Assembly: GCF_019683595.1 (NCBI RefSeq)
Contig: NZ_JADGHZ010000002.1
Coordinates: 1-64,000, forward strand
DNA from: Sphaerobacter sp.
Lineage (GTDB): Bacteria; Chloroflexota; Chloroflexia; Thermomicrobiales; Thermomicrobiaceae
Direction: 5' to 3'
Length of the DNA stretch: 64,000 nucleotides
The position numbers were made by a program, and so were the translations under genes. Below the pieces are notes generated by a model. The model was given only the letters and a program-made list of their open reading frames with translations, was not told the origin of the DNA and made no database searches. This document shows, in pieces, positions 8,856 through 61,237 of this stretch (positions within the stretch are counted from its first letter, which is position 1; every line of letters begins with the position of its first letter).

Positions 8856-8861
8856 GGCAGC

Positions 8862-9422: not shown

Positions 9423-9452
9423 AGTATAGGCTTCCCGCCAATGGGGGGTCAA
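9423..9452 (-). promoter_or_regulatory. Promoter for the GTPase-fmt-nfi operon
   Basis: On the minus strand TTGACC (9452-9447) is followed after 18 bp by TATACT (9428-9423). Transcription would begin near 9416, leaving a leader of about 50 nt before the ATG at 9365. It is back-to-back with the plus-strand promoter of the DUF2298 operon. Confidence 0.6.
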
Positions 9453-9460
9453 CGGCCCGA

Positions 9461-9489
9461 TTGTCCTGGTATGGTCCCGCTGTTATGAT
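9461..9489 (+). promoter_or_regulatory. Extended -10 promoter for the DUF2298 operon
   Basis: TTGTCC (9461-9466), 17 bp, then TATGAT (9484-9489) preceded by TGT, forming an extended -10 (TGTTATGAT). Transcription would start about 9496, only a few bases before the ATG at 9499, so the mRNA is predicted to be nearly leaderless. No ribosome binding site is present in front of that ATG. Confidence 0.6.
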
Positions 9490-9498
9490 TTCGCAGCA

Positions 9499-31525: not shown

Positions 31526-31536
31526 GGAGGCATCGC

Positions 31537-36450: not shown

Positions 36451-38031
36451 ATGACCGACGCGCTCGTAGACTGGCCCTATACCTCGGCGGCACTCCTGGC
36501 GGGTGCCGCCCTCTTTGCGACCCTGCTCTTCGCGCTCGCGCGGGTCGGCATCCCCGGCATCGACCGCATCTCCGGAAACACCGTGCAGCGATTAGCCAAG
36601 AACAGCGCCGCCCCGATTGTCGGGCAGCTCGCCAACCGCGCGGTGGACCTGGTCTTCGCGGCCTTCGTGCTCCGCCTCCTCGGTGCCACGGCCAATGGGC
36701 AGTACGCGGTCGCGGTCGTGGCGTGGCTGTACCTCAAGACGATCTCTGACTTCGGCCTCAGCGTTCTGGTCACGCGCGAAGCGGCGCGTGAACCCGATCG
36801 TGCCGGGCGCCTGCTTGGGGCCAGCACACTACTCCGTATCGTCGTGCTGGTCGCCTTGGTTCCCCCGGTTGCCACCTACACCGTCGGGGGCACGCACCTG
36901 TTCGACCTCTCGCGCGCGAGCGCCGTCGCCATCGGCCTGCTGACCCTCTCGCTCGTCCCCGGCAGTTACACCGAGGCGATCAACTCAATCTTCAACGCCC
37001 ATGAGCGAATGGAGCTGCCCGCCGCCCTCAATGTCGCCACAAACCTCTTCCGCTTCTGCCTCGGGCTGGCGGCCTTGGTAGCAGGCTTCGGTGTCGTCGG
37101 CCTTGCGCTCGTGGCGTTGGTGACGACCACCGTGTCCACGCTCGCCTACCACGTTGCGCTGCGACACCTCGGTGTGCGGCCTGAGTGGCGGCTCACCCGA
37201 ACCGAAGCGCGCTGGTTGATCACGCTCTCCTGGCCGCTCTTGTTGAACTCGCTCCTGGTAAACCTGTTCTTCCGGGCCGACGTGTTCATCATCCAGGCGA
37301 CCCGCGGCGACCACGCGCTCGGTGTCTATGACGCCGCCTACAAGTTCATCAACACGGTCCTCCTGGTTCCGACCTACTTCACCCTCGCCGTCTTCCCGAT
37401 CTTGTCGCGCTACGCCACGTCCGATCAGACGCGACTGATCGACAGCTACCGGCTCGCGATCAAGTTCATGCTGATCATCGCCTGGCCGATGACGCTCGGC
37501 ACGGTCGCGCTGGCGCCGCTCCTGATCGACATCCTCGGCGGCGCTGAGTTCCTCCCCGACTCCGCCAGCGCGCTGCGCGTCCTCATCTGGTTCCTGCCGT
37601 TAAGTTATGTCAATGGCGTAACCCAATACGTCCTGATCGCGGTGGACCGCCAGCGGTCGATCACCGGGGCCTTCGCCGCTGCGGTGGTGTTCAACCTGGG
37701 AGCCAACCTCCTGCTGGTGCCGCGGTACGGGATCTACGGGGCGGCGGCGGTGACCGTTGCTACCGAAGTCGTCATCTTCGGCACGCTCGGGGTCGCGGTG
37801 CGGCGTTACGTCGGGCGGCTCAACTGGTCCGACATTGCGTTCCGGCCGGCACTTGCCTCCGTTGCGATGGGTGCCGTGCTTCTCCTCACCTGGCGCCTCG
37901 GGGCGATCCCGGCAACCATCGCAGCCTGCGTCGCCTATGCGGGCGCGCTGGTCGTCTCCGGGGCAGTCGGACGACAGGAGGCGAACATCGTCCTCGCCCT
38001 CCTCGGACGAACCCGGACCGCTGCGTCGTGA
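36451..38031 (+). CDS. Wzx-type polysaccharide flippase (MOP superfamily)
   Basis: A 526-residue protein with about 14 helices, preceded by an extra N-terminal helix (TSAALLAGAALFATLLFAL). The core begins at LAKNSAAPIVGQLANRAVDLVFAAFVLRLLG and carries typical MOP features: GATANGQYAVAVVAW, SDFGLSVLVTREAAREP, FFRADVFIIQATRGDHALGVYDAAYKF and YGIYGAAAVTVATEV. It exports lipid-linked repeat units. ATG start 24 bp after the small membrane protein. Last gene of the first locus; the tRNA promoter lies 65 bp past its stop. Confidence 0.88.
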   Translation: MTDALVDWPYTSAALLAGAALFATLLFALARVGIPGIDRISGNTVQRLAKNSAAPIVGQLANRAVDLVFAAFVLRLLGATANGQYAVAVVAWLYLKTISDFGLSVLVTREAAREPDRAGRLLGASTLLRIVVLVALVPPVATYTVGGTHLFDLSRASAVAIGLLTLSLVPGSYTEAINSIFNAHERMELPAALNVATNLFRFCLGLAALVAGFGVVGLALVALVTTTVSTLAYHVALRHLGVRPEWRLTRTEARWLITLSWPLLLNSLLVNLFFRADVFIIQATRGDHALGVYDAAYKFINTVLLVPTYFTLAVFPILSRYATSDQTRLIDSYRLAIKFMLIIAWPMTLGTVALAPLLIDILGGAEFLPDSASALRVLIWFLPLSYVNGVTQYVLIAVDRQRSITGAFAAAVVFNLGANLLLVPRYGIYGAAAVTVATEVVIFGTLGVAVRRYVGRLNWSDIAFRPALASVAMGAVLLLTWRLGAIPATIAACVAYAGALVVSGAVGRQEANIVLALLGRTRTAAS

Positions 38032-38142: not shown

Positions 38143-38219
38143 GGAGGCGTGGTGTAGTGGCCTAACATGCAGCCCTGTCAAGGCTGAGATCGCGGGTTCG
38201 AATCCCGTCGCTTCCGCCA
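38143..38219 (+). tRNA. tRNA-Asp(GTC), CCA encoded
   Basis: A 74-nt body plus encoded CCA. It folds as a full cloverleaf: acceptor GGAGGCG/CGCTTCC, D-stem GTGT/ACAT, anticodon stem CAGCC/GGCTG with loop CTGTCAA (anticodon GTC), T-stem GCGGG/CCCGT with TTCGAAT. Discriminator is G73, an aspartate identity element. Confidence 0.95.
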
Positions 38220-38232
38220 GACAGCATCTCGC

Positions 38233-38262
38233 ACGGCGACCCACGCGGGTCGCTGTGTTGTT
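38233..38262 (+). terminator. Terminator after the first tRNA-Asp
   Basis: ACGGCGACCC, loop ACGC, GGGTCGCTGT form a 10-bp stem (one G-U), followed by GTTGTTT. It lies 14 bp after the tRNA CCA. Confidence 0.65.
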
Positions 38263-38391
38263 TGCCGCGACGTGTGGTCGAGCCAGGCGCTCGGACCAGA
38301 GGCGGCACCGTCGGCTCGCTCTGTGGCGCTCCATGCCCGACAGGCGCGGGCACGACGGGGAAAAACATGGTAGAGTATGGGCCAACGGCGT

Positions 38392-38465
38392 GGGGGCGTG
38401 GTGTAGTGGCCTAACATGCAGCCCTGTCAAGGCTGAGATCGCGGGTTCGAATCCCGTCGCTCCCG
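38392..38465 (+). tRNA. tRNA-Asp(GTC), second copy, CCA not encoded
   Basis: Identical to the first tRNA-Asp over 67 nt, differing only by a compensatory change in the acceptor stem (A3-U70 becomes G3-C70, giving GGGGGCG/CGCTCCC). The anticodon loop CTGTCAA and G73 are unchanged. The genomic 3' end reads CCG, so CCA must be added by the nucleotidyltransferase. It is 172 bp from the first copy, with a terminator between, so it is likely transcribed separately; no clear promoter was found. Confidence 0.94.
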
Positions 38466-38479
38466 CCGCAAGAACCCAG

Positions 38480-40185: not shown

Positions 40186-40893
40186 GTGTCCAACAGGGCC
40201 ATGAACACGCAAGCCGGTCGACCGCGAACCGTCATCGTGCTCGGGAAGGGTACGCTGGCGATTCGGATCGCCGACTGGTTCTATCGGAGTCCCGACTACC
40301 ACCTGACACAGGTCGTCCCGGTGATTCCCGAGCCGACCTGGACCGACTCGTTGACCGAGTGGGCGCGCGAGCACGGCGTGCCCGTCGTGGCCTCAGGCCA
40401 CTACCGCGACATCGAGGGGGTTCACGACGAGTCCTGGCGCGTCGACCTGGCGATGTCCGTCTTCTACGGGCACATCATCCGCCCGTGGTTCATCGCCAAG
40501 TGCGAGCGGATTTGGAATCTCCACAACGGCCCGCTCCCGCGGTACCGGGGAGTGTCGCCCATCAACTGGGCTTTGAAGAACGGCGAACGGAAGCACGGCG
40601 TGACCATCCACGAGATCACGTCGGGAATCGACGACGGGCCGATCATTGCTCAGGTGGAGTACTCAATTTATCCCGAGTTTGACGAAGTCCAAGACGTCTA
40701 CCTCCGTGCACTGGAGTACGGCTGGACGCTCTTCCAGCAGACGATGCCGCTCGCCGACCGCATCACCCCGCGGCCGCAGGACGAATCGCTCGCCACGTAT
40801 TACAGCCGCGAGCACGACGCGCTGCTCGGGGATCGCCGCGATTTTACACGGGCTGCATCCCGGCGGCAGTTGGCTGCCAGCGACCGCCACTAG
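40186..40893 (+). CDS. Formyltransferase-family protein (sugar N-formyltransferase-like)
   Basis: A 235-residue protein with the catalytic core of 10-formyl-THF-dependent formyltransferases: IWNLHNGPLPRYRGVSPINWAL (Asn111, His113) and EITSGIDDGPIIAQ (Asp150). GTG 40186 is preferred, with GGGGAGG four bases upstream. It lacks the C-terminal tRNA-binding domain of Fmt and a canonical Fmt exists at 7875, so the substrate is more likely an amino sugar nucleotide or another amine, as in VioF/WbkC-type enzymes. First gene of the second locus, 59 bp before the ATP-grasp gene. Confidence 0.83.
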   Translation: MSNRAMNTQAGRPRTVIVLGKGTLAIRIADWFYRSPDYHLTQVVPVIPEPTWTDSLTEWAREHGVPVVASGHYRDIEGVHDESWRVDLAMSVFYGHIIRPWFIAKCERIWNLHNGPLPRYRGVSPINWALKNGERKHGVTIHEITSGIDDGPIIAQVEYSIYPEFDEVQDVYLRALEYGWTLFQQTMPLADRITPRPQDESLATYYSREHDALLGDRRDFTRAASRRQLAASDRH

Positions 40894-40952
40894 CGCAGGT
40901 GGCTTGGCAGACGTCTCGGACGCGACGAACAGGTTGGAAGGGCGAGCAGGGA

Positions 40953-42248
40953 GTGACCGAGCGCACCAGGTTGGACCAAACAGCAGCGGAACGGGGCGTT
41001 GCGAGCACCGTCGAACGACAGGCGGCGGATAATCCAGCGTACACCGAGCCACGCCGGAACCGATCTGCTGGACGACCGAACACCGAGACGGTCGGTGCCG
41101 TCGTGGTCGGCGGCAACTTCCCCGGGCTCGGCATTGTCCGGAGCCTCGGGCGTCGAGGCATCCCGGTGTGCGTCATCGACGACGAAATCTCCGTCAGCCG
41201 GGTCTCCCGGTACACCACGCACCACGTCCGCGTCCCCGACCTCCTCGACGAGCAGCGTGCGGTCGAGACGGTGCTCGACGTCGGACGGCGACTTGGGCTG
41301 GACGGCTGGATCCTCTACCCGACGCGCGACGAGAACGTCGCCGCGTTCGCACGCTACCGCGACCAGCTCAGCGCCCAGTACCGCGTGCCGAGCCCGGGCT
41401 GGGAAAGTGTGCAGTGGATCTGGGACAAGCGCCGGACCTACGAGATGGCCGGCCAGCTCGGCATCCCGGCACCGCGCACCTGGTGCCCTCGGGACGTTGC
41501 GGAGCTCGATGAGCTGAACGTCGAGCTGCCGGTCGCGATCAAGCCGGCCATCAAGGAGCACTTCATCTACGCGACGAAGGCTAAAGCCTGGCGCGCGGAC
41601 ACGCGCGAGGAGCTGCGCGAGAAGTTCCAGCAGGCCGCGGCGCTGGTCGGGCCCGGCGAAGCGATGGTGCAGGAACTCATACCGGGAGACGGGCGCCACC
41701 AATTCGCCTACTGTGCCTTCTACAAGGATGGACAGGCGATCGGCAGTATGGTCGCCCAGCGCCGGCGCCAGCACCCGCCGGAGTTCGGCCGGGCAAGCAC
41801 CCTGGCCGAGACGGTCGATATCCCACTCCTCGAGGAGTTGTCCGAACGCTTTCTACGCCACGTCAACTTCTACGGGCTCGTGGAGATGGAGTATAAGCTC
41901 GACCCGCGCGACGGGCAGTACAAGCTCCTCGACATCAACGCACGCGCCTGGGGCTACCACACCCTGGGGCAACGGGCAGGCGTCGACTTCCCGTACCTCC
42001 TGTACGCCGATCAGGTTGGACTCCCGGTCGAGCCCTGCCGGGCCCAACCGGGGATCCGATGGATCCGGCTGGTGACCGACTTGCCGACCGGTGCCGTCGA
42101 GATCAAGGACGGGACGCTCTCCTTGCGCTCGTATCTGCGCTCGCTGCGCGGCATCCACATCGAGTCGGTCTTCGCACGCGAGGATCCCCTTCCCGGGATC
42201 TTCGAACTCGCGTTGATCCCGTACGAAGCCATCAAGCGGGGGTTCTAG
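40953..42248 (+). CDS. ATP-grasp ligase
   Basis: A 431-residue ATP-grasp protein from GTG 40953 (upstream GGAAGGG). The preATP domain starts at VGAVVVGGNFPGLGIVRSLGRRGIPVCVID; the ATP-grasp fold follows with DKRRTYEMAGQLGIPAPRTW, LPVAIKPAIKEHF, AMVQELIPGDGRHQFAYCAF and the Mg-binding VEMEYKLDPRDGQYKLLDINARAWG. Enzymes of this kind ligate a carboxylate to an amine through an acyl-phosphate. A D-aspartate-ligase or carbamoyl-phosphate-synthase-like relative is closest by layout, but the substrate is not evident. It lies between the formyltransferase and a PSD-like decarboxylase, 3 bp before the latter. Confidence 0.85.
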   Translation: MTERTRLDQTAAERGVASTVERQAADNPAYTEPRRNRSAGRPNTETVGAVVVGGNFPGLGIVRSLGRRGIPVCVIDDEISVSRVSRYTTHHVRVPDLLDEQRAVETVLDVGRRLGLDGWILYPTRDENVAAFARYRDQLSAQYRVPSPGWESVQWIWDKRRTYEMAGQLGIPAPRTWCPRDVAELDELNVELPVAIKPAIKEHFIYATKAKAWRADTREELREKFQQAAALVGPGEAMVQELIPGDGRHQFAYCAFYKDGQAIGSMVAQRRRQHPPEFGRASTLAETVDIPLLEELSERFLRHVNFYGLVEMEYKLDPRDGQYKLLDINARAWGYHTLGQRAGVDFPYLLYADQVGLPVEPCRAQPGIRWIRLVTDLPTGAVEIKDGTLSLRSYLRSLRGIHIESVFAREDPLPGIFELALIPYEAIKRGF

Positions 42249-42251
42249 AAC

Positions 42252-43115
42252 ATGATCTACCACCTCGTGGCCGGAGGCCTCGCTGCCCTCGGCACCGCGC
42301 TCGCATTGGCCTGGAAGTGGCAGCTCGGCATGCGCCGCACCGCGGCGGCCGTCACCGTACTGGCGACCGTGTCGGCCGCCCTCGTGACCGCGCTGGGCAA
42401 TGTCCTCGCGCTCAATGGACGCGTTCGCACCGTGCTCACCACGGCGTCGACGCTCACCGGGGCCTTCTCCGTGCTCGCCTACCGTTTCTACCGCGACCCG
42501 GAGCGCGTGGCCCCCAACCGCGACGATGTCATTGTGAGCCCGGCCGACGGAACGGTCCTCTACATCCACCGGTCGTCGAACGGCGAACTGCCGATCGCCA
42601 CCAAACAGGGCCGGAGCTACACCCTGCGAGAACTGACAGGAACCCCGCTCCAGATGCAACACGCCATCGTCATCGGCATCGGCATGAGCTTCCTGGACGT
42701 GCACGTGAACCGCGCGCCGATCGCGGGCCGCATCGTGTCGCTGCAACGCTTCCCCGGTCTCTTCGGCTCGCTGCGGGATCCGCACATGATCTTCGCCAAC
42801 GAGCGCGTCACGACGGTCATCGAGAACGGCAACCTCCAGATTGCCGTCGTGCAAATCGCGTCGCGTCTGGTTCGCCAGATCGCCTCGTTCGTCAGAGAGG
42901 GCCAGGACGTCGCCTTGGGACAGCGCATCGGTGTGATCCGGCTCGGCTCGCAGGTCGACCTGGTGCTGCCGGCGGTCGAGGGGCTGCGCGTGAACGTCCG
43001 GCCAGGCGACCACGTCACCGCTGGGGAGTCGATCCTCTGCACCCTCGACAGGAGGGGACTTCAAACGGTCGACGTCTCGCGCAGCGTGGAATTGGAGGAA
43101 TCCCGTGTCGAGTAA
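42252..43115 (+). CDS. Phosphatidylserine decarboxylase-family pyruvoyl enzyme
   Basis: A 287-residue membrane-associated PSD. Two or three hydrophobic segments lie in the first 80 residues, then RFYRDPERVAP, IVSPADGTVLYIH, FLDVHVNRAPIAGRI and NERVTTVIENG. The self-cleavage site is GVIRLGSQVDLVLP: cleavage before Ser233 would make the pyruvoyl group, as in the short PSD/archaetidylserine decarboxylases. The known reaction is phosphatidylserine to phosphatidylethanolamine. No phosphatidylserine synthase is adjacent; the gene is wedged between an ATP-grasp ligase and four FemAB-like genes, so a different or dedicated serine-containing substrate is possible. Its last 11 bp overlap the next gene. 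Confidence 0.88.
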   Translation: MIYHLVAGGLAALGTALALAWKWQLGMRRTAAAVTVLATVSAALVTALGNVLALNGRVRTVLTTASTLTGAFSVLAYRFYRDPERVAPNRDDVIVSPADGTVLYIHRSSNGELPIATKQGRSYTLRELTGTPLQMQHAIVIGIGMSFLDVHVNRAPIAGRIVSLQRFPGLFGSLRDPHMIFANERVTTVIENGNLQIAVVQIASRLVRQIASFVREGQDVALGQRIGVIRLGSQVDLVLPAVEGLRVNVRPGDHVTAGESILCTLDRRGLQTVDVSRSVELEESRVE

Positions 43116-44289
43116 CCACCCTGCGTGGGATGATGTCGCGATAGCCAGCGCGGAGGGGCAGTACGGGTCCGCCGCGCAAGGGATGAAAGCGGACAACGAT
43201 CCGGCAACACGGCTCCGCGTCGTGGAGATCGACGCCGAGACGGACCGGCGGTGGGCGGAATTCGTGACTGCCCATCCCGAAGGCCATCTGTATCATCACC
43301 CGGCCTGGTCACAAGTGATCGCAGAGACGTATGGCTACCGACCGGCTCATCTCGCCTGCGAAGACGCAGCCGGGAACCTGCACGGCGTCTTGCCGCTGTT
43401 CTCGCAGCGAGGGCTGCTCAGCGGACGGCGCCTGGTTTCCCTGCCGCACACTCCAGTGTGTGGTCCGTTGACAACCAGCCGCGCAGCGACGGCCGCCCTC
43501 CTCCGCGCCGCGGTGGAACGTGCCGGAGCCGACGGACACCAGGGGCTCCTGATCAAGGCGGACGCGCCGGACCTGAGCACCGACATCCCCGGGCTGGTGC
43601 CGGTCCAGTGGGATCCAACCTACATCGTGGACCTGCCCAGTCCGCCGCAGCCACCCGCCTTCAGTTCGGCTCGGCATCGCGAGCGGATCAAACGGGCGGT
43701 CAAGAAGGCGCTCAAGAATGGGGTGGTCACGCGGGAGGTGCAAACGCGCGACGAGCTGCGCGACTGGTATCACCTGTACCTCACGACCATGCGTCGCCTC
43801 GGCGTGCCTCCGCGGTCGTTCCGCTTCTTCACCGTGGCCTGGGAGCGGCTCAGACCACTGGGGCTGATGTCGGTCCTCCTGGCCGAGCTCCCCACGTCGA
43901 ACGGTACGCAGATGCTCGGTGGATGCGTCTACTTTGCCTGTGCTCGGACAACGTTGTTCGCCTTCACCGGCTATCGTCAGGACGCACTCTCCCTGCGGCC
44001 GAACGATCTGATCCAATGGACGGCCATCCACACCGCCTGGGAGCGAGGACACCATCGGTTCGACCTGGGCGAAGTGGAACCAGGAGACGACGGTTTGGCG
44101 CGCTACAAGTTGAAGTGGGGCGCGGAGCCGCGGCCTCTCTACCGCTACTTCTACCCCGCTCCCAAGGACGTCGTCATGGACGTCGTCGCGTCCCGAGGGC
44201 GAGTACGGGCTGCCGCGCAAGCTACGTGGCGGATCCTGCCCCTCGCGGTCACACAGCAGCTCGGAGAGTGGATCTACCAATACCTGTGA
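43105..44289 (+). CDS. FemAB/GNAT-type acyltransferase, paralogue 1 of 4
   Basis: A 394-residue double-GNAT protein of the FemAB/BioF2-like class. The first GNAT half has HPEGHLYHHPAWSQVIAETYG and LACEDAAGNLHGVLPLF; the second has ARHRERIKRAVKKALKNG, WYHLYLTTMRRLGVPP and HHRFDLGEVEPGDDGLARYKLKWG. FemAB enzymes transfer amino acids from aminoacyl-tRNA to peptidoglycan precursors, and the wider family includes acyltransferases for exopolysaccharides. The signature order is shared with the next three genes. GTG start inside the PSD gene. Specificity cannot be derived from sequence. It is the most diverged of the four and has a longer N-terminal tail. Confidence 0.83.
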   Translation: MSSNHPAWDDVAIASAEGQYGSAAQGMKADNDPATRLRVVEIDAETDRRWAEFVTAHPEGHLYHHPAWSQVIAETYGYRPAHLACEDAAGNLHGVLPLFSQRGLLSGRRLVSLPHTPVCGPLTTSRAATAALLRAAVERAGADGHQGLLIKADAPDLSTDIPGLVPVQWDPTYIVDLPSPPQPPAFSSARHRERIKRAVKKALKNGVVTREVQTRDELRDWYHLYLTTMRRLGVPPRSFRFFTVAWERLRPLGLMSVLLAELPTSNGTQMLGGCVYFACARTTLFAFTGYRQDALSLRPNDLIQWTAIHTAWERGHHRFDLGEVEPGDDGLARYKLKWGAEPRPLYRYFYPAPKDVVMDVVASRGRVRAAAQATWRILPLAVTQQLGEWIYQYL

Positions 44290-44419
44290 GTCAGGGGGTT
44301 GTCTGCGGTCCAGGGGACCGCGTTACCCGCGTGGACCCCGCTCCGGTCAAACGGGCGCGCTCATTCCATTGGGCGAGGCCGCTGCAACGTCGCCCCGGGG
44401 TTGGGGAAGGAGATTGTGG

Positions 44420-45529
44420 ATGCAACCGGTCATTGAGCACAGCCCTGTCAGGGCACGATCGCTTCGGGTGAGGCTCGTCGATCCGACCACCGATCCCCGG
44501 TGGGCCGAGTTCGTGACGTCCCACCCGGACGGGCTGGCATTCCACCATCCTGCGTGGCTTGCCACGCTGGCCGACACCTTCGGCTTCGCACCCTTTCACC
44601 TCGCCTGCGAGGACGAGCGCGGCACGGTGCACGGAGTGCTGCCGCTCGTGTACCGACGCGGACTGCTCCGCGGCCGTCAACTGTGGTCGTTGCCGTACAC
44701 ACCCCTCGCCGGCCCCCTGGCCCGGAGCCGGGCGGCCTTAGGGGCCTTGGTGCATGCCGCGGTGGACCTGGCCGAGCAGGCCGCCGGGCAGCGCCTACAG
44801 CTTCATTCCGACCTGCCGGATCTGACCGTCCGCGATGTGTCGTTCCTGCGCGTCGACTGGTATCCGAACTACGTCATCGACCTGTCAGATCGGTCGGAGG
44901 CCCCTCGATTTTCCAAGTCCCGGCGCCGGGGAATCGCCAAGGCGGTCCGCGCCGGGGTCCAGGTGCGCGACGCCGATCGTGTCAGCGACGTCCACGCGTG
45001 GTACGACCTCTACGTCCGGACGCTCCGCCGCCTGGGCCACCCGCCTCTCCCGCTCACACTCTTCGAGGCGGCCTGGACCCACATGCGGTCGCAGGGGTTG
45101 CTCCGCCTGCTCCTGGCGGAGCGGGTTGCGGGTGGACGCACGGAGCTCCTTGCCGGCGCCGTCGTGCTCCATGGGACCACCACGGTGACCGATCAGTACA
45201 CCGCCGACCGCCTGGACGCCCGCCAGTACCACCCGAGCGATATGATCCTCGGCCAGGCGATTTACCAAGCATGGGAGGCCGGTTATCGACGCTACGACCT
45301 GGGCAGTGTTGCTCCCGACCAGACTGGCCTCCGACAGTTCAAGGAGGTATGGGGCGCCCGCCCACGCCCGCTCTATCGCTACTTCTACCCGCCCTCCGAC
45401 TGGGGCACCCGCCTGTCTAGGCCGCGCTCACGCACTCAGGGACAGGCCGGGCTTGCCGCTGCATGCTGGCGACGAGTGCCGCTCGCGGCGACGAGGCCCC
45501 TCGGTCGCTGGATCCATCAGTACCTGTAG
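44420..45529 (+). CDS. FemAB/GNAT-type acyltransferase, paralogue 2 of 4
   Basis: A 369-residue paralogue of the preceding protein. ATG 44420 with AAGGAG seven bases upstream. Shared blocks: SHPDGLAFHHPAWLATLADTFG, LACEDERGTVHGVLPLVYRRG, a central KSRRRGIAKAVRAGVQ basic segment, WYDLYVRTLRRLGHPP and YRRYDLGSVAPDQTGLRQFKEVWG. The final tail (WRRVPLAATRPLGRWIHQYL) is amphipathic and common to paralogues 1-3. It lies 130 bp after paralogue 1; no promoter is obvious in the gap. Cytosolic, probably associated with the membrane face. Confidence 0.83.
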   Translation: MQPVIEHSPVRARSLRVRLVDPTTDPRWAEFVTSHPDGLAFHHPAWLATLADTFGFAPFHLACEDERGTVHGVLPLVYRRGLLRGRQLWSLPYTPLAGPLARSRAALGALVHAAVDLAEQAAGQRLQLHSDLPDLTVRDVSFLRVDWYPNYVIDLSDRSEAPRFSKSRRRGIAKAVRAGVQVRDADRVSDVHAWYDLYVRTLRRLGHPPLPLTLFEAAWTHMRSQGLLRLLLAERVAGGRTELLAGAVVLHGTTTVTDQYTADRLDARQYHPSDMILGQAIYQAWEAGYRRYDLGSVAPDQTGLRQFKEVWGARPRPLYRYFYPPSDWGTRLSRPRSRTQGQAGLAAACWRRVPLAATRPLGRWIHQYL

Positions 45530-45558
45530 TGTGCGAGAGTGGTGAAGGGCTGGACATC

Positions 45559-46686
45559 ATGAGCATCGACTACCGCCTGGAAACACCCCTCATACGGGAA
45601 CAATTGCGGGTCACACTGGTCGACCACACGGCCGACTCGCGAGTGGCCTCATTCGTTGAGTCCCACCCAGACGGTCTTCCCTTTCACCACCCGGCGTGGC
45701 TCCAAACATTGGTCGACACATACGGATACCGCGCGGTCGCGTTGGCCTGCGAGGACGACCAGGGGAACCTGCACGGCTTCCTGCCGCTCGTGTACCGCCA
45801 TGGGTGGCTTCGCGGGAAGGCGCTGTGGTCACTCCCGCACACGCCGCTGGCCGGCCCACTGGCTACCAGCGATGCGGCTGCCACCGCCCTGGTGCAGGCG
45901 GCAGTCGAGTTAGCCGAACGCGAGGTAGGGCAGCGCCTGCAGTTCAAGACGCTGGGTCCGGACCTCAATCAGCGCGCTCCGACCTTGCAGCGGGTGGAAT
46001 GGTACCCGACGTACGTGATTCCGCTGCCGGACCGCACAGGCCCATTACGGATCGGCGCCCCTGGATACCACCAGGACATCCGGCGCGGGGTGAGGAAGGC
46101 CACGGAATACGGTCTCCGGGCACGGGAGGGTAAGAGCATCGACGACCTGCATGCATGGTACCGGCTCTACCTCGCAGGCATGCGCCAAAAGATGTCGCCC
46201 CCCAACCCGTTCCGTTTCTTCGAAGCTGCCTGGCACCACCTGCACCCGCGGGGATTCCTGCGACTCATTCTAATCGAACAGCGATCGGGAGGCTCATCCG
46301 AGTTGGTCGGCGGAGCGATCACCGTCCTGGTATCGCAGACGGCGGTCGGCGAGGGTATCGGTCAGCGTGACGGCACGAGCACGCTCCACCTCCACGATCT
46401 CCTGTACTGGGAGTCGCTCCACATCGCGTGGGAGGCGGGTTGTCGTTCCTTCGACCTGGGAAACGTGCCGACCGGTCAAGAGGGCTTGGCGCGTTACAAG
46501 CGGAAGTGGGGCGGCGTGCCACATCCTGTCTACCGCTACTTCTACCCCGCGAGCCCGCAGAACGCCCGGCTCCCCAGCCCCACCTCGCTCCAGCAGCGGA
46601 TGGGGCGGCTGGGTCAGGCGGGCTGGCGCCGCGTGCCACTCGCCGCGACAGCATGGATCGGGTCGGTGGTCACGCACTACCTGTGA
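45559..46686 (+). CDS. FemAB/GNAT-type acyltransferase, paralogue 3 of 4
   Basis: A 375-residue paralogue. ATG 45559 chosen with GAAGGG upstream; the 32 residues before it in the track overlap the end of paralogue 2. Blocks as in its neighbours: SHPDGLPFHHPAWLQTLVDTYG, LACEDDQGNLHGFLPLVYRHG, GYHQDIRRGVRKATEYG, WYRLYLAGMRQKMSPPNPFRFFEAAW and CRSFDLGNVPTGQEGLARYKRKWGG. The 'M-x-x-K/E-x-[SG]-PP-x-PFR-[FL]-F-[DE]-AAW' segment, probably the acyl-acceptor helix, is closest to paralogue 4. Same C-terminal amphipathic tail. Confidence 0.83.
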   Translation: MSIDYRLETPLIREQLRVTLVDHTADSRVASFVESHPDGLPFHHPAWLQTLVDTYGYRAVALACEDDQGNLHGFLPLVYRHGWLRGKALWSLPHTPLAGPLATSDAAATALVQAAVELAEREVGQRLQFKTLGPDLNQRAPTLQRVEWYPTYVIPLPDRTGPLRIGAPGYHQDIRRGVRKATEYGLRAREGKSIDDLHAWYRLYLAGMRQKMSPPNPFRFFEAAWHHLHPRGFLRLILIEQRSGGSSELVGGAITVLVSQTAVGEGIGQRDGTSTLHLHDLLYWESLHIAWEAGCRSFDLGNVPTGQEGLARYKRKWGGVPHPVYRYFYPASPQNARLPSPTSLQQRMGRLGQAGWRRVPLAATAWIGSVVTHYL

Positions 46687-46736
46687 GCATCACCCAGCGG
46701 CGGCACCGGACGGGAGACAGTGAGGGGTTGGATGGT

Positions 46737-47861
46737 ATGGCAACTGAATCAGTCCCGCGAACCGAACATCGTTCCGGCGGACTCCGCGTCAATCTCGTCG
46801 ACCCCACGGCGGACCCCCGCTGGGCGGCATTCGTATCGGCACATCCGGACGGGCTGGCCTTCCACCACCCCGCCTGGCTCGCCACCCTGGCCGACACCTT
46901 CGGCTACCCCCCTGCTCATCTCGCCTGCGAAGACGACCAGGGCAGACTGCATGGGGTGCTGCCGCTGGTCTACCGCCGCGGCCTGATACGCGGCCGCCAG
47001 CTCTGGTCACTCCCCTGCACGGCCGTGGCCGGTCCGCTCACCACCAGTGCCGAAGCGGCCGAGGCCCTGATCCAGGCGGCGATCAGGCTGGCCCAGGAAC
47101 CGCCCGCCCACCGGCTGGTACTTCACTCGATGGTGCCGGACCTCGATCCGGGAGGCACCGTTCTCTCCAGGGTCGAGGGCATCCCGACCTACGTGATCGA
47201 TCTTCCGGAGCGCACGGAGCCGCTCCGGGTTGGGGCTGCCGGCAAGCACAGCGTCATCAAACGCGGGGTGAAAAAGGCACATGAATATGGCTTGCGGCTG
47301 CGAGAAGCCGAGCGCTTCGAGGACCTGGTCGCGTGGTATCGCCTGTACGTGGGAACGATGCAAGAGAAAGAATCCCCGCCTCTCCCCTTCCGCCTGTTTG
47401 ATGCAGCCTGGCACTACCTGCGCCCGGAAGGAATGCTGCAGCTCCTCGTGGTCGACCAGCCGAGAGGAAACGGGACGGAACTCATCGGGGGCGAGATTCT
47501 GCTGCTCAATTCGCAGACCGTTCTTGGCGAGTACCTCGCCCGCAGCCCCATCTCGAGGCAGCTTCACGGTCACGACCTGATCCAATGGCACATCGTCCAT
47601 TCGAGCTGGGACGCGGGATATCGTCGCATCGACCTCGGCGACGCCCATCCGGAGAGCGGTCTGGCACGGTACAAGCGCAAGTGGGGCGGACAGCCACGGC
47701 CGATGTATCGCTACGTGGAACGTCGTCCGTCGACGACGCAGGCCGGCACCAGTGGCCCATCACGCGGAAGTAAGCTTCGGCAGTTGGCGAAGCCGGCGTG
47801 GCGCCGCATGCCACTCCCAGTCGCGGCGCGTGCAGGGGCCCTCGTCTACCGCTACGCCTAG
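46737..47861 (+). CDS. FemAB/GNAT-type acyltransferase, paralogue 4 of 4
   Basis: A 374-residue paralogue from ATG 46737 (GAGGGG upstream). Blocks: AHPDGLAFHHPAWLATLADTFG, which is nearly identical to paralogue 2; LACEDDQGRLHGVLPLVYRRG; AGKHSVIKRGVKKAHEYGLRL and WYRLYVGTMQEKESPPLPF, which are closest to paralogue 3; and YRRIDLGDAHPESGLARYKRKWGG. The mosaic similarity suggests repeated duplication, perhaps with gene conversion. It ends the FemAB block; a 490-bp gap follows. Confidence 0.83.
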   Translation: MATESVPRTEHRSGGLRVNLVDPTADPRWAAFVSAHPDGLAFHHPAWLATLADTFGYPPAHLACEDDQGRLHGVLPLVYRRGLIRGRQLWSLPCTAVAGPLTTSAEAAEALIQAAIRLAQEPPAHRLVLHSMVPDLDPGGTVLSRVEGIPTYVIDLPERTEPLRVGAAGKHSVIKRGVKKAHEYGLRLREAERFEDLVAWYRLYVGTMQEKESPPLPFRLFDAAWHYLRPEGMLQLLVVDQPRGNGTELIGGEILLLNSQTVLGEYLARSPISRQLHGHDLIQWHIVHSSWDAGYRRIDLGDAHPESGLARYKRKWGGQPRPMYRYVERRPSTTQAGTSGPSRGSKLRQLAKPAWRRMPLPVAARAGALVYRYA

Positions 47862-47983: not shown

Positions 47984-48350
47984 TTATCGACTCCACGCAC
48001 AACGTAAGGGTCCCTGTTAATCGGCCCAGACCATACTGACATACGGAAACTCCGGTCGATGGTCGGGAGTTGCGTCGGTCGGTGGAGAAGTCACGACGCC
48101 GACCCGATCAGCACGTAGCGCGCGACTGGAGCTGCGCGGGTCACTGTCCCCCGCCCAACGGTCCATTCGGCGCGGACGTACGCTGCACTCCGCCGCAGCG
48201 GCCACGTCACCCTCACCGGCGCTCACCGCGCGAGGTAGGCCGGTGAACCGAATGGGCGCGACAGGGACGGTCACAGTCTGGGAGCTGCCCCAACCTCGAC
48301 GGAGACCGACGGAGTATCGCGCGGCAGCTTCCCTAGACGAGAGTGGTGGA

Positions 48351-49985
48351 ATGGAACTACGCGCCTACGCGGCCATCCTGTGCCGCCGGAAGTGGATCGT
48401 TCTCCTCACGGTTCTGACAGCATTGGGAGTCGCGGTCGCCGCAAACCGGATCATCGCGCCTGTCTACGTCGCGACTGCGACGGCTCGGGTCTCGGTCACG
48501 TCGGGCTCGATCGACTACGTGATTCGGGATCCCACCTATACGGACCGCCTGCTCAACACCTATCTGACGCTCGTCACCAGTCACTCCGTGCGCGAGCAGG
48601 TGGCGAAAGAACTGAATCTCAATACGCTGCCGGAAATCTCCGGGACCGCCCCGGCGAACTCGGAACTCCTGCATGTCAGCGCCTCCCACCGCGACCCGGC
48701 CATGGCTGCCGCGATCGCCAACGCCGCCACCGCGGCACTGGCCGCTCAGGTGGAAACCGCCCAGCAGTCGAACCCAGAGTCCGCCCAGGCACTGGGAGAG
48801 GATTTCGCGGCGGCCCAGCAGGCCCTGCTCGATGCACGGCTCAAGTACGAGTCGCTGGCATCGGATCCACAGGCGGACCCGAACGATGTCGCTTCCGCGC
48901 GGATCGAGCTCGACCTGCGGCAGCAGGAATACAGCTCCCTGCAGACACAATATGACCGCGCTCGAGTGACCGAGGCGACTCGCCGCGACACGATCGTTCT
49001 GGCGGACCCGGCCGTACCACCGGAGAGCCCGAGCTCGCCGAACCAGTTGCTGAACCTGGCCCTTGGTCTCGGCGCCGGGCTCGTCGGTGCCATCGGGCTC
49101 GCGTTCCTCTTCGAGAATCTGGACGATCGGCTCTACACGACTGGGGCCATCCGTCGCGCGGCACGCGTACCGATCCTCGCGGTGATCCCGCGTTCCGGGC
49201 GACGTGCCCGCATCTTGTTGGTCTCTGCTAACGCTCGCCTGCTCGAAGCGTTCCGCTGGCTGCGGACCAATCTGCTTTATCAGAGCGCACGGCAACCGCT
49301 CAAGACGATCGTGATCACCAGCTCCCAACGCGGCGAGGGGCGTTCCACCGTGACGGCCAATCTCGCCTTCGTACTCGCCGGGGCGAACCGCCGCGTGATC
49401 ATCATCGACGCCGACCTGCGCTCGCCGCGACAGCACCAGTTCTTCGGGTTGTCGAACCACTGTGGGCTCACCAGCGTGCTGCGCGACGAGGCATCGGTGG
49501 CTGACGCGCTCCAGACGACCACCATCCCTCGGATCCAGGTACTGACCAGCGGCCCCGAGCCGTCGTATCCGCCGGAACTGCTCGGCTCGGAGCGGATGCG
49601 TCAGCTCCTGACCGAGCTGCGAGCGACGGCGGACTTGATCCTGCTCGATGCGCCACCGCTTGAACAGGTGGCGGATGCAGCGATTCTGGCCGGGATCGTC
49701 GACGGCGTCATTCTCGTGGTCCAGAGCGGGCGCGCCCGCGAAGGGGCCGTCGTCGCCGCCATCCGCAAGCTCGACACGCTTCAGGCGCGCGTGGTCGGGG
49801 TCGTGGCCAACCAGGCCGACGCTGACGACGGCGAGCCGGCGGAGAGCTACGACGCAGTCCCAACCGCTCGTCTGATCACGCATGAGAACCCGACACCAGT
49901 GGCTGTCCGAAACGGGCGGCCTTCGCGGCTGCGCCAGCGGTTCGCGGAGGCCGAGTCAGAGTCGTCTCTGCGTGGTGATGAGTGA
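48351..49985 (+). CDS. Wzz-like chain-length protein fused to BY-kinase-like ATPase (altered Walker A)
   Basis: A 544-residue protein; ATG 48351 (MELRAYAAILCRRKW) is the usual opening of Wzz proteins, so the 36 track residues before it are omitted. An N-terminal helix (IVLLTVLTALGVAVAA), a periplasmic coiled-coil stretch and a second helix (LLNLALGLGAGLVGAIGLAFLF) are followed by a BY-kinase domain with VIIIDADLRSPRQHQFFG (Walker A') and ADLILLDAPP (Walker B). The Walker A reads SSQRGEGRST: the catalytic lysine is arginine (Arg331). The C-terminus has a single tyrosine, not a Tyr cluster. It probably controls chain length and export without normal kinase activity. Confidence 0.86.
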   Translation: MELRAYAAILCRRKWIVLLTVLTALGVAVAANRIIAPVYVATATARVSVTSGSIDYVIRDPTYTDRLLNTYLTLVTSHSVREQVAKELNLNTLPEISGTAPANSELLHVSASHRDPAMAAAIANAATAALAAQVETAQQSNPESAQALGEDFAAAQQALLDARLKYESLASDPQADPNDVASARIELDLRQQEYSSLQTQYDRARVTEATRRDTIVLADPAVPPESPSSPNQLLNLALGLGAGLVGAIGLAFLFENLDDRLYTTGAIRRAARVPILAVIPRSGRRARILLVSANARLLEAFRWLRTNLLYQSARQPLKTIVITSSQRGEGRSTVTANLAFVLAGANRRVIIIDADLRSPRQHQFFGLSNHCGLTSVLRDEASVADALQTTTIPRIQVLTSGPEPSYPPELLGSERMRQLLTELRATADLILLDAPPLEQVADAAILAGIVDGVILVVQSGRAREGAVVAAIRKLDTLQARVVGVVANQADADDGEPAESYDAVPTARLITHENPTPVAVRNGRPSRLRQRFAEAESESSLRGDE

Positions 49986-50056
49986 GCATGGCACGCGCTC
50001 AACGTCACTGGCGGGAATCCCAGAGCACCGGGCTGCGCCTAGGGAAGGACAGGGTC

Positions 50057-50782
50057 ATGATGCAAGCCCAGCAGGCGGTGGAGATCCCAAGGGCCGTGGT
50101 TACGCACGTCGATCAACGGCGCCTGCGCTACTACGCCACCAAGCGCTGCATCGACGTCGTCCTGTCCAGCGCAGCTCTGGTGCTGCTGTCGCCGGTGATG
50201 CTGGTGATCGCGCTGGCGATCAAACTGGACTCTCGCGGACCGGTGATCTTCGCTCACGAACGGGTAGGCGCACGGATGCGGCGTCGTGGAACGACCGTCG
50301 CCTGGGAGATCCGGCCGTTCCGGTTCTACAAGTTCCGCTCGATGGTGCACAACGCGGACGAATCGCTCCATCGGGCACACATCGCCGCCTACGCAAGCGG
50401 GCAGGTGCAACGCGGACCCGGCAAGGGTGGCTTCAAGCTCACTGGCGACCCCCGGATCACCCGGGTCGGACGCTTCCTGCGGGCCACCAGCCTCGACGAA
50501 CTGCCGCAACTCGTCAACGTGCTCAAGGGCGACATGAGTCTCGTCGGGCCACGGCCGGTGCCGCCCTATGAGGTCGAGCACTACGAGTCGTGGCACTTCG
50601 AGCGGCTGGCAGCACTGCCCGGAATCACCGGGTTGTGGCAGGTCACCGGCCGCTGCGCGCTCACCTTCGACGAGATGATCGCGCTCGACCTTGAGTACGT
50701 GCGGAACCAGTCAACGGTGCTGGACCTCAAGATCTTGGCCCGGACCGTTCCGGCGGTGCTCCGGGGCACCGGAGCTGGATAG
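50057..50782 (+). CDS. Initiating sugar-phosphate transferase (polyprenyl-phosphate glycosyl-1-phosphate transferase)
   Basis: A 241-residue small-PGT (bacterial sugar transferase, PF02397) starting at ATG 50057 with GGGAAGGA seven bases upstream. One membrane helix ([25 protein letters not shown]) precedes the catalytic region: [50 protein letters not shown] and [12 protein letters not shown]. It transfers a sugar-1-phosphate to undecaprenyl phosphate and starts repeat-unit assembly on the cytosolic side. It is the only such enzyme in the window, so the first locus may depend on it too. Confidence 0.93.
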
Positions 50783-50814
50783 TCGACGCACGAGCTATGG
50801 GAGGACGGAGGGAC

Positions 50815-51894
50815 ATGGCTGAACAAATAGGCATCGCGGTCCTCGGCTGCGGCTACTGGGGCGTCAACTACGTCCGGGTCTTCAACGAGATCCCAGAGAC
50901 ACGCGTAGTCGTAGCCTGCGACCAGCGGCCCGAGCGGGTGCGCGAGATCGCTCAGCGGTACCCCGGTATCGCCGTGACCACGGATGTGGCCGACGCCCTC
51001 GCCATGCCGGGTGTCGATGCCGTGGTGGTCTGCACCGAGGCGACCTCACATCATCGCGTGGCCCGCGAGTGTTTCCGCGCCGGGAAACACGTCCTCATCG
51101 AAAAGCCGATCGCGACGACGAGCCAGGACGCCGAGGACCTGATCGCGGCGGCCAATGCCCGCAAGTTGACCCTCATGGTCGGGCACACCTTCCTCTACAA
51201 CGCGGGCGTGCAACGCGTGAAGGAGTACATCGACCGGAAAGAGGTCGGCCGGATCTATTACCTGTACGCGCGCCGCACCAACCTCGGCCCGATCCGGAAA
51301 GATGTCAACGCGCTCTGGGATCTCGCGCCGCACGACATCTCCATCTTCAACTACTTCATGGATTCCGCTCCGCTGTGGGTCAGCGCGGTCGGCTCCCGGG
51401 CTCTGCGTAACGGTCGCGAGGACGTTGGCTTCATCGTCCTCGGGTACCCCGACAACGTGCTCGGCCAGATCCATGTGAGCTGGGCTGATCCCCACAAGGT
51501 TCGCGAAGTGGTGGTCGTCGGGAGCGACAAGCGGATCGTCTTCAACGACCTCCAGACCATGGAGCAAGTGCGCGTCTTTGAGAAAGGCGTTGCCCCGTTG
51601 ATGCAGAACGGGGAGGGCATCGGCGGAGACCAGCTTGTGGTGCGCGACGGCGACATCATCAGCCCCAGCATCCAGCCCCGGGAACCGCTCAAGACCCTCG
51701 CTGCCCACTTTGCTGAGTGCGTGATCCACGGCCGCCGGCCGCTCACGGACGGCCCCGCCGGGCGGGATGTCGTGCGTGTTCTCGAGGCAGTGGATAAGTC
51801 GATGGCCATGCGTGGCACGCCGGTCGAACTCACGAACACGAAGGAGTCGCTCTATGTCTACCCTGCAGAGTCAGCGTCGCATCCCCTTCGTTGA
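50815..51894 (+). CDS. Gfo/Idh/MocA-family NAD(P)-dependent oxidoreductase
   Basis: A 359-residue oxidoreductase; ATG 50815 with GGAGGG is preferred over the ATG six codons upstream. The Rossmann motif is IAVLGCGYWGVNYVRVF and the EKP motif is HVLIEKPIATTSQDAEDLI; the C-terminal domain includes LWDLAPHDISIFNYF (the usual His). With the overlapping aminotransferase it likely makes a 3-keto and then a 3-amino sugar nucleotide, as WlbA/WlbE-type pairs do. Substrate inferred from context only. Confidence 0.88.
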   Translation: MAEQIGIAVLGCGYWGVNYVRVFNEIPETRVVVACDQRPERVREIAQRYPGIAVTTDVADALAMPGVDAVVVCTEATSHHRVARECFRAGKHVLIEKPIATTSQDAEDLIAAANARKLTLMVGHTFLYNAGVQRVKEYIDRKEVGRIYYLYARRTNLGPIRKDVNALWDLAPHDISIFNYFMDSAPLWVSAVGSRALRNGREDVGFIVLGYPDNVLGQIHVSWADPHKVREVVVVGSDKRIVFNDLQTMEQVRVFEKGVAPLMQNGEGIGGDQLVVRDGDIISPSIQPREPLKTLAAHFAECVIHGRRPLTDGPAGRDVVRVLEAVDKSMAMRGTPVELTNTKESLYVYPAESASHPLR

Positions 51895-53011
51895 CCTGGC
51901 CGCCCAGTACGACAGCATCGCGCCCGAGGTCGATGCGGCCATCGCGCGCGTGCTGCGCGGCACCGACTTCATCCTGGGCGCCGACGTCACCGCGTTCGAG
52001 CGCGAGTTCGCCGACTACTGCGAGATCGAGCACGCGGTCGGCGTCGACTCGGGTACGTCGGCCCTGGAGCTCGCGCTGCGGGCATTCAACATCGGGCCAG
52101 GGGACGAGGTGATCACCCAGGCGAACACGTTCGTCGCGACGGTGTTCGCGATCGCCTACACGGGGGCGACTCCGGTGCTCGTGGACGTCGATCCGAGCAC
52201 CTACAACATGGATCCGGAGCTGCTCGAGCAGGCAATTACGCCGCGCACCAAGGCCATCTTGCCGGTCCACCTCTACGGCCAACCGGCCGACATGGACCCG
52301 ATCGTGGAGATCGCCCGGCGCTACGGCCTCATCGTGATCGAGGACGCCTGCCAGGCACACGGTGCCCGCTACAAGGGCCGACGGGTCGGCACCTTCGGCC
52401 ACGCTGCGGCCTTCAGCTTCTATCCCGCGAAGAACCTCGGTGCCTACGGAGACGGCGGCATGGTCGTTACGCCGGACGCCAAGGTGGCCGATACGGTGCG
52501 CCTCCTCGGCAACTACGGCCAGCGGGAGAAGTATCACCACCTGCAGTTGGGCTTCAATCGCCGGTTGGACACGCTCCAGGCGGCGGTGATGCGGGTCAAA
52601 CTCCGCTACCTCGACGAATGGAACGCCGCACGGCGCCGTCACGCCGAACGGTATGCGGAGGTCTTGCCGGAGAACGTCGGCATCCCCTCGGTGCCGTCAT
52701 ATGCGGAACCGGTCTGGCACCTCTACGTGATCCGAGTGCCGAATCGGGACGCGCTCCGCGCCGCACTGGCTGAGCGCGGCATTGCGACGGGTATCCACTA
52801 TCCGATCCCGATCCACCTGCTGCAAGCGTGCTCAGGGCTCGGCTACCGGCGCGGCGACTTTCCGGTCACCGAAGCTGTCGCTGATCAGATCCTGTCCCTC
52901 CCCATGTATCCGGAGCTGTCGGACGGCGCGATCGACTACGTCGCAGCAGCCATTCGCGATGTCCTGGAGCGAGACCAGCCCGCACCGGGGATCGCACGAA
53001 CCGCTGACTGA
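51854..53011 (+). CDS. DegT/DnrJ/EryC1-family sugar aminotransferase
   Basis: A 385-residue PLP-dependent aminotransferase, ATG 51854 with AAGGAG seven bases upstream; it overlaps the oxidoreductase by 41 bp. The catalytic lysine is in FSFYPAKNLGAYGDGG (Lys193); GVDSGTSALELALRAFNIGPGDEV and VIEDACQAHGARYKGRRVGTFG are family motifs. It aminates a keto sugar nucleotide. Such an amino sugar would be a natural substrate for the formyltransferase at 40186 or for the FemAB-type enzymes. That link is inference. Confidence 0.92.
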   Translation: MSTLQSQRRIPFVDLAAQYDSIAPEVDAAIARVLRGTDFILGADVTAFEREFADYCEIEHAVGVDSGTSALELALRAFNIGPGDEVITQANTFVATVFAIAYTGATPVLVDVDPSTYNMDPELLEQAITPRTKAILPVHLYGQPADMDPIVEIARRYGLIVIEDACQAHGARYKGRRVGTFGHAAAFSFYPAKNLGAYGDGGMVVTPDAKVADTVRLLGNYGQREKYHHLQLGFNRRLDTLQAAVMRVKLRYLDEWNAARRRHAERYAEVLPENVGIPSVPSYAEPVWHLYVIRVPNRDALRAALAERGIATGIHYPIPIHLLQACSGLGYRRGDFPVTEAVADQILSLPMYPELSDGAIDYVAAAIRDVLERDQPAPGIARTAD

Positions 53012-61143: not shown

Positions 61144-61237
61144 AGGTCCCTATCGTGGCCAGCCGTGGAGGAGATGGAGTCGCTCGCCAGTGCCTCCGGC
61201 GTGCGCTCGCATACAGGAGATAGAGAAGCTAGCCGCT

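Follow-up and report, generated by a model that had tools for sequence, protein, structure and literature searches.

A conserved ATP-grasp and phosphatidylserine decarboxylase-like gene pair as the predicted core of a decoration module in exopolysaccharide loci of Sphaerobacter and other bacteria

The window analyzed here, a stretch of 64,000 nucleotides from a Sphaerobacter sp. contig (NZ_JADGHZ010000002.1), carries a block of seven consecutive plus-strand genes. All seven open reading frames (ORFs) named in a preliminary description of this DNA are present in the sequence, and their base composition resembles that of coding DNA, with GC3 at 0.73-0.87 and GC2 at 0.46-0.54. The first gene (40186-40893) encodes a stand-alone, sugar-type N-formyltransferase of 235 aa (PF00551, Formyl_trans_N, 76 bits). 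It is followed by ATP-grasp ligase 1 (40956-42248, with an alternative start at 40899) and by a pyruvoyl decarboxylase of the phosphatidylserine decarboxylase (PSD) type with a hydrophobic N-terminal region (42252-43115; PF02666, 146 bits). Next comes FemAB-like acyltransferase 1 (43105-44289; GNAT/FemAB Pfam), whose ORF overlaps the 3' end of the PSD gene by 11 nt, and then three tandem paralogues, FemAB-2 (44369-45529), FemAB-3 (45463-46686) and FemAB-4 (46737-47861). The starts of the last two were corrected: FemAB-3 probably begins near 45559 and FemAB-4 near 46737, the latter being an inferred start within an ORF that is open from 46428. Pfam Acetyltransf_6 matches all four FemAB-like proteins at 46-59 bits, and the FemAB model also matches two of them. 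Scans for promoters and terminators returned no signal above the chance level.

The preliminary description placed the block adjacent to a Wzx/Wzy locus, and stretches of Wzx/Wzy-type exopolysaccharide (EPS) genes indeed lie on both sides of it. The upstream stretch ends with a second Wzx-like flippase (36451-38031; Wzx_EPS 59 bits, below cut-off). Downstream, likewise on the plus strand, are a Wzz/tyrosine autokinase for EPS chain-length control (48243-49985; Wzz and AAA_31, with TIGR01007 over its cut-off at 162 bits), a polyprenyl-phosphate sugar transferase for repeat-unit start (49982-50782; Bac_transf 213 bits, EPS_sugtrans 273 bits), a UDP-GlcNAc 3-dehydrogenase-like oxidoreductase predicted to supply amino sugar (50797-51894; GFO_IDH_MocA, with NF040723 at 177 bits against a cut-off of 450), a DegT/DnrJ aminotransferase predicted to place the sugar amine (51767-53011; PF01041, 419 bits), a Wzy/O-antigen-ligase-like polymerase (53087-54652; PF04932) and a Wzx-like flippase (54659-56113; PF01943). 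Flippase, polymerase/ligase, initiating transferase and Wzz kinase are thus all present, as in a Wzx/Wzy EPS locus.

Catalytic residues can be seen in the formyltransferase, the PSD and the ATP-grasp protein, in agreement with the preliminary description. The formyltransferase has the Asn/His/Asp triad of Formyl_trans_N within NLH and GIDDG motifs, and its nearest solved structures are ArnA and sugar N-formyltransferases. The ATPgrasp_Ter match of ATP-grasp 1 is marginal, since it scores 30.3 bits against a cut-off of 29.1. The predicted model of this protein (pLDDT 79) has the L-amino-acid ligases RizA/BL00235, and also PylC, among its best folds, and Foldseek returned a probability of 1.00 for RizA, 3vot and 2pn1. 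The acidic/Mg-ATP residues E310/E312 and D326-x-N328 are invariant in nine proteins, as expected for an ATP-grasp fold. A search of solved structures with the ATP-grasp sequence gave zero matches, and a profile search gave weak matches only. The predicted fold confirms the ATP-grasp assignment. Biotin carboxylases and PurK are also among the fold matches, however, which leaves amide ligation a prediction, and the "carboxylate-amine ligase" of the preliminary description is better worded as a predicted activity. The model of FemAB-1 (pLDDT 86) has FemX and FemA as best folds, with TM scores of 0.65/0.75 to FemX, which confirms the tandem-GNAT FemX fold for this copy.

PSD residues D99, D149-x-H151 and S233 align with the maturation and pyruvoyl residues D90, D142, H144 and S254 of E. 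coli PSD (PMC7952604). Together with the domain match, the pyruvoyl Ser and the Asp/His maturation residues place the protein in PF02666; its best score against the NCBIfam equivalogs for true PSDs is 154 bits, below the threshold of 183. It belongs to one clade (support 100/98), the members of which have a Gly-Ser-Gln (GSQ) cleavage site, an insertion of about 20-25 residues, and Q234, K118 and E127, whereas all 32 ordinary PSDs compared have Gly-Ser-Arg (GSR) and lack the insertion. A search of solved structures with the PSD profile gave zero matches. A mobile-plasmid origin was considered and rejected: the best plasmid PSD matches are less than 42% identical, and of the four plasmid regions viewed, the two with annotation show a GSR-type PSD next to pssA, the other two being unannotated.

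The preliminary description would have been undermined by a PSD that always travels with a phosphatidylserine (PS) synthase, and the opposite was found. A PS synthase lay beside the GSQ PSD in none of the nine loci tested, versus a PssA-like gene near the ordinary PSD in 10 of 12 loci (same class). Moreover, three genomes (G415, G416 and G417) carry both kinds of PSD, and it is the ordinary copy that adjoins PssA. These data bear on the possibility that the block encodes an ordinary phospholipid enzyme which makes membrane phosphatidylethanolamine (PE) or a diol-lipid equivalent. The block PSD is the only PF02666 gene of the window genome and shares its maturation residues with true PSDs, which speaks for such a role. 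However, no PS synthase was recognized in this genome (pssA model 28-32 bits against a cut-off of 107), where the only two CDP-alcohol transferases are PgsA-like and PI(P)-synthase-like, as they are in several PSD-less relatives. Most family relatives lack a matching PSD, the GSQ PSDs branch apart from ordinary ones and travel with EPS genes, and the related organism Thermomicrobium roseum is reported to contain no PE (PMC2615216). A role as an ordinary phospholipid enzyme is therefore very improbable, and the missing PS synthase, the clade separation and the genomes with both PSD kinds led us to reject ordinary PE synthesis. The GSQ PSD apparently does not serve PE.

From about 27.5 to 56 kb, the window is collinear with the genome of the congener G029, where the proteins are 78-97% identical, so the seven-gene set is not a chance assembly. 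The orthologues in G029 are 91% identical for the formyltransferase, and 83%, 84% and 78% identical for FemAB-2, FemAB-3 and FemAB-4, respectively. Conservation of the full set is confined to these two Sphaerobacter-like genomes, and the seven genes are not supported as the single unit that had been supposed. A smaller core is conserved more widely, with a PSD-like decarboxylase gene immediately downstream of an ATP-grasp ligase gene. The gene after this pair is often a FemAB enzyme or a second ATP-grasp, FemAB-1 being the semi-conserved partner in the window. At genus level, the formyltransferase and FemAB copies 2-4 have been added to the core, these FemAB copies being older tandem duplicates within the genus. 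Elsewhere, only one distant and differently placed formyltransferase homologue (38%, in locus L105) is linked to a GSQ PSD. Capping by formyl was the weakest part of the preliminary description, because the formyltransferase lies outside the conserved core; a simpler predicted role is action on a 3-amino sugar, which is itself predicted because UDP-GlcNAc 3-dehydrogenase-like and DegT genes are nearby. The proposal that this EPS locus contains a previously undescribed module of decoration type is thus retained, with its extent reduced from seven genes to ATP-grasp and PSD.

The pairing is well supported. A GSQ-type PSD and a member of the ATP-grasp 1 family occur in one locus in 12 distinct genomes from at least four phyla; outside the window genome these loci were found via PSD searches, except G186, which was first seen through its ATP-grasp, and beyond Sphaerobacter they are mostly on MAG contigs. 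The two genes are adjacent in 11 of the 12 genomes, with ATP-grasp directly upstream of PSD, and lie 10 kb apart in L185. All 12 loci are of EPS type, and ATP-grasp of the pairing family was absent from the 12 ordinary PSD loci searched. One member, L168, is divergent and sits on a long branch. In L105, L106 and L107, PSD is followed by related FemABs. An FAD oxidoreductase lies upstream of ATP-grasp in many other loci; it was rejected as a core part because neither the window genome nor seven other pair-holding genomes have it.

PSD and ATP-grasp might be unrelated EPS neighbors that hitch-hike without a joint function. EPS loci are often reshuffled, and the ATP-grasp family is commoner without a GSQ PSD, which is lacking in 26 of 27 Chloroflexota genomes selected for the ATP-grasp, so the ligase has a PSD-independent role. 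Against this stand the same gene order at adjacent positions across phyla, the co-divergence of the two proteins (rho of 0.92 between PSD and ATP-grasp identities, reached by 0 of 5000 permutations), and a single 687-aa ORF in L102 that fuses PSD to ATP-grasp 2. Hitch-hiking is thus highly improbable. Furthermore, two GSQ PSDs that have no ATP-grasp lie downstream of a remote relative of the YbdK-type carboxylate-amine ligase (E=4e-9 and 1e-5), a partial replicate by which the logic of the module would be independent of a single ligase type. The gene upstream of PSD in L183 and L184 gave no Pfam match.

Taken together, the block is best read as a module that decorates a lipid-linked exopolysaccharide precursor and has ATP-grasp and a neofunctionalized PSD-like decarboxylase at its core. 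The gene pairing, the co-divergence, the fusion, the EPS setting and the separation from PS synthase are observed; the reaction steps built on them are predicted. The neighboring sugar genes would make an amino sugar. ATP-grasp would then activate a carboxylate with ATP and join an amino acid to the membrane-bound precursor, which would leave a free alpha-amino acid head group; the favored linkage is by the side chain, such as Glu through its gamma-carboxyl or Asp through its beta-carboxyl. The membrane-held PSD, whose chemistry class is indicated by its conserved catalytic residues, could form a Schiff base with the alpha-amine and remove the alpha-carboxylate, yielding an omega-amino-acyl or aminoalkyl arm from this putative substrate. 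FemAB, or the second ATP-grasp in other lineages, may subsequently acylate the exposed amine, and the formyltransferase probably formylates either the 3-amino sugar or the amine exposed by PSD. We lean towards the general claim that, in polysaccharide decoration, PSD acts on what ATP-grasp has made; the chemistry with a side-chain link, taken alone, is doubtful.

Alternatively, the locus may supply ethanolamine or phosphoethanolamine to the polymer, wherein PSD would decarboxylate an O- or phosphate-linked serine and ATP-grasp would join the amine to the carboxylate of a uronic acid. The capsule of Campylobacter jejuni offers a parallel, with ethanolamine attached to glucuronic acid by an amide bond. 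A serine head group suits PSD chemistry, amide formation suits the ATP-grasp fold, and uronic acids are plausible because UDP-glucose-dehydrogenase-type genes are present in the window locus and in L105. However, no serine-transfer or phosphotransfer gene was recognized in the block, a serine amide-linked via its own amine could form no Schiff base, and ATP-grasp often occurs without PSD. We consider the ethanolamine route unlikely.

The ATP-grasp/PSD pair recurs in unrelated phyla without the usual lipid-making partner, and it appears that a lipid decarboxylase has been repurposed, together with an amide-forming ligase, for the sugar-coat polymers of certain soil and heat-loving bacteria. An annotation as "phosphatidylserine decarboxylase" is often taken as a sign of PE synthesis. 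The GSQ clade is linked to polysaccharide loci and can be recognized by its cleavage site and insertion; therefore, such annotations in Sphaerobacter and in some soil Acidobacteriota, Nitrospirota and Actinomycetota are probably wrong. More broadly, we tentatively suggest a horizontally exchanged, cross-phylum "ligate, decarboxylate, re-acylate" module, in which a pyruvoyl PSD paralogue serves as a glycan-tailoring decarboxylase and places amine arms on lipid-linked precursors. We know of no glycan-type substrate class for PSD enzymes. If the decoration model holds, pyruvoyl decarboxylation joins surface-glycan chemistry, and coats with positive charge or amide decoration could arise in this way.

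No described equivalent of the gene combination was found in the open-access literature, and several known systems resemble parts of it. Like the small PSDs of the PRK05305/TIGR00164 type (PF02666), the block PSD is a pyruvoyl proenzyme with D-H-S maturation residues and a hydrophobic N-terminus; it differs from them in having GSQ instead of GSR, an insertion with invariant Lys and Glu, scores below the NCBIfam equivalog cut-offs, and an ATP-grasp partner in EPS loci in place of an adjoining PS synthase. The formyltransferase shares the Formyl_trans_N core and Asn/His/Asp residues with sugar N-formyltransferases (the ArnA N-domain and WlaRD) but scores below every NCBIfam equivalog cut-off. 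RizA/BL00235 and PylC, which rank at or near the top of the fold matches of ATP-grasp 1, are only 14-16% identical to it. In Caulobacter holdfast synthesis, the FemX-like N-acyltransferase HfsK, suggested to acylate amines freed by the deacetylase HfsH, likewise acts in a polysaccharide pathway, whereas an ATP-grasp-PSD pair is not mentioned in the portions of that report consulted (PMC5362036).

The FemAB-like proteins also match, along their length, the XrtA/PEP-CTERM-associated FemAB family TIGR03019, which is found in EPS loci, at 108-132 bits against a cut-off of 260. This likeness, and a score of 101 bits to the archaeosortase-linked decarboxylase family NF038088, would suit a special lipid head group that anchors the polymer or a sorted protein, similar to the archaetidylserine decarboxylase of the archaeosortase system. 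The NF038088 cut-off is 240 bits, however; no partner lipid synthase lies beside PSD and no exosortase was recognized among the window genes scanned, which makes a lipid anchor a distant prospect. The butirosin side chain is built by the ATP-grasp ligase BtrJ and the decarboxylase BtrK, which uses PLP and an acyl carrier protein, with a second glutamyl residue as cap. The decarboxylase of the block is instead of the pyruvoyl-dependent, membrane type, and a carrier protein was not found among the Pfam-scanned block genes. As an analogy only, the two systems share ligation by the ATP-grasp family and the combination of a ligase, a decarboxylase and a second acylation.

Seven consecutive plus-strand genes (40186-47861) were read in the preliminary description as a formyltransferase, an ATP-grasp ligase, a phosphatidylserine decarboxylase (PSD)-like enzyme and four FemAB-like proteins, and this reading is borne out by the ORFs, all confirmed and of coding-like composition, by Pfam families and by predicted folds. 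Pfam matched the formyltransferase (76 bits) and the PSD (146 bits) and placed the four proteins downstream of the PSD in GNAT/FemAB. The ATP-grasp match was marginal (30.3 bits against a cut-off of 29.1); the predicted structure confirmed its fold, with L-amino-acid ligases as best matches and carboxylases, PurK and PylC also matched. FemAB copy 1 has a predicted FemX fold, and the nearest NCBIfam of all four copies is the XrtA-associated FemAB family (108-132 bits, below the 260-bit cut-off).

The block lies between two exopolysaccharide (EPS) stretches. The upstream stretch (27.5-38 kb) carries a GH5-like gene, two Wzy-type genes, an epimerase, a glycosyltransferase and Wzx; the downstream stretch (48-62 kb) carries Wzz/tyrosine kinase, an initiating sugar transferase, a UDP-GlcNAc-3-dehydrogenase-like enzyme, a DegT aminotransferase, Wzy, Wzx, a glycosyltransferase, a nucleotide-sugar dehydrogenase and a polysaccharide lyase (PF14099, 55 bits, 61190-62110) at its downstream end. 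From the pairing of 3-dehydrogenase and aminotransferase, synthesis of a 3-amino sugar near the block seems likely. The window holds three Wzy/O-antigen-ligase-like genes (30083-34015 and 53087-54652) and two Wzx-like flippases, counts that suggest two adjacent polysaccharide loci. Two tandem tRNA-Asp(GTC) genes (38143-38467) lie between the stretches, just upstream of the block.

The feature conserved across genomes is the ATP-grasp/PSD pair. G186 emerged from an ATP-grasp search covering 301 Chloroflexota genomes; in it, ATP-grasp, PSD and FemAB are consecutive and ordered as in the window. A PSD-profile scan of GTDB release 220, with one genome per species, returned loci in MAGs labelled Acidobacteria (3), Nitrospirae, Chloroflexi (2, including G186) and Streptosporangiaceae. 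ATP-grasp lies directly upstream of PSD in 6/7 of these loci (58-68% identity); in the seventh (L185), ATP-grasp and an FAD oxidoreductase are 10 kb from PSD within one EPS locus. Profile searches also found ATP-grasp followed by PSD in L168 (sampled as the phylum of G416) and in L181 and L182 (sampled as the phylum of G419). In total, 12 genomes carry the pair, adjacent in 11. PSD and partner ATP-grasp identities are correlated across the 12 (rho 0.92; 0/5000 permutations as high), to which shared species history contributes. The PSD tree mixes phylum labels, which suggests that the pair is transferred as a unit.

A common partner of the pair is FemAB or a second ATP-grasp: the gene after PSD is FemAB in the window, G029 (a congener), L105, L106 and L107, and ATP-grasp 2 in L102, L103 and L104. 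PSD and ATP-grasp 2 are fused in L102 (one 687-aa ORF), and L103, a Nitrospirae MAG, has the same arrangement, apparently broken by a frameshift within ATP-grasp 2 (L103:8627; possibly misassembly or gene decay). In L104, an acidobacterial MAG, a luciferase-like monooxygenase (PF00296) and an AMP-forming-ligase-like gene follow ATP-grasp 2 (8510-12435), suggesting an NRPS-like extension.

An alternative is that the PSD always accompanies a phosphatidylserine synthase elsewhere. This is not so, as a PssA-like CDP-alcohol transferase was found near 0/9 window-type PSDs tested. Of 12 ordinary PSD loci examined from the same class, 10 have such a gene, with an LDSLAD-type motif, near PSD, and none has this ATP-grasp family. 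G415, G416 and G417 each carry both kinds of PSD, and the ordinary copy adjoins a PssA-like gene in all three. Two CDP-alcohol transferases are present in the window genome, a number shared by several relatives that have no matching PSD; two further relatives have a third, weaker match. Phosphatidylethanolamine is reported absent from Thermomicrobium roseum (PMC2615216).

The window-type PSDs form a clade of 14 members, on one side of a 100/98 branch against 25 ordinary PSDs (root not fixed). The residue after the pyruvoyl serine is Gln in 14/14 members and Arg in 32/32 ordinary PSDs, all of which lack the clade's insertion at about residues 106-133, in which Lys118 and Glu127 are invariant. 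Two members, from small genomes (L183 and L184), lie outside EPS loci without this ATP-grasp. The gene directly upstream of PSD had no Pfam match in either and is a remote relative of YbdK-type carboxylate-amine ligases (E=4e-9 and 1e-5), which weakly suggests that pairing of a ligase with the decarboxylase is what unites these loci. These PSDs (VHFNYAP variant) and the YbdK/glutamate-cysteine-ligase relatives occupy L183:9075-10806, where the genes overlap, and L184:19-1527.

Within the genus, about 27.5-56 kb is collinear between the window and G029 (78-97% protein identity), with all seven genes present. A third congener, 91% complete, has no matching PSD, and such PSDs are uncommon in the family. 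Outside the genus, only L105 links the formyltransferase to PSD, through a homologue of 38% identity at a distance of about 6 kb, and the gene counts as accessory. FemAB copy 1 falls within a group that includes the PSD-adjacent FemABs of L105 and L107; the duplications behind copies 2-4 predate the split of the two Sphaerobacter-like species. Judged from gene content, the ATP-grasp also works without PSD, because, among 27 genomes of Chloroflexota chosen for having the ATP-grasp, 26 lack this PSD. In many, often PSD-free, EPS loci (L082, L083, L084, L086, L088, L089, L097, L102, L103, L104, L185), the gene immediately preceding this ATP-grasp family encodes a flavin oxidoreductase (Pyr_redox_3, with a weak match to Lys/Orn oxygenase), which is absent from the window genome.

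Taken together, the proposed surface-decoration system is a reasonable idea, with its centre shifted from the seven genes to the ATP-grasp/PSD pair, a system for which we found no published description in the open-access literature. PSD chemistry requires a free alpha-amine and alpha-carboxylate; therefore, the substrate would be a side-chain-tethered amino acid or an O- or phosphate-tethered serine. We hypothesize that the ligase joins the side-chain carboxyl of an amino acid to an amine, that PSD decarboxylates the resulting side-chain-tethered amino acid to expose a new amine, and that FemAB or ATP-grasp 2 may then acylate this new amine. In the Caulobacter holdfast, the FemX-like HfsK has been suggested to acylate deacetylase-exposed amines (PMC5362036). 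Genes of the deacetylase family lie next to the pair in both L181 and L182. The proposed ligation, decarboxylation and acylation would mirror the side-chain logic of butirosin, by analogy rather than homology.
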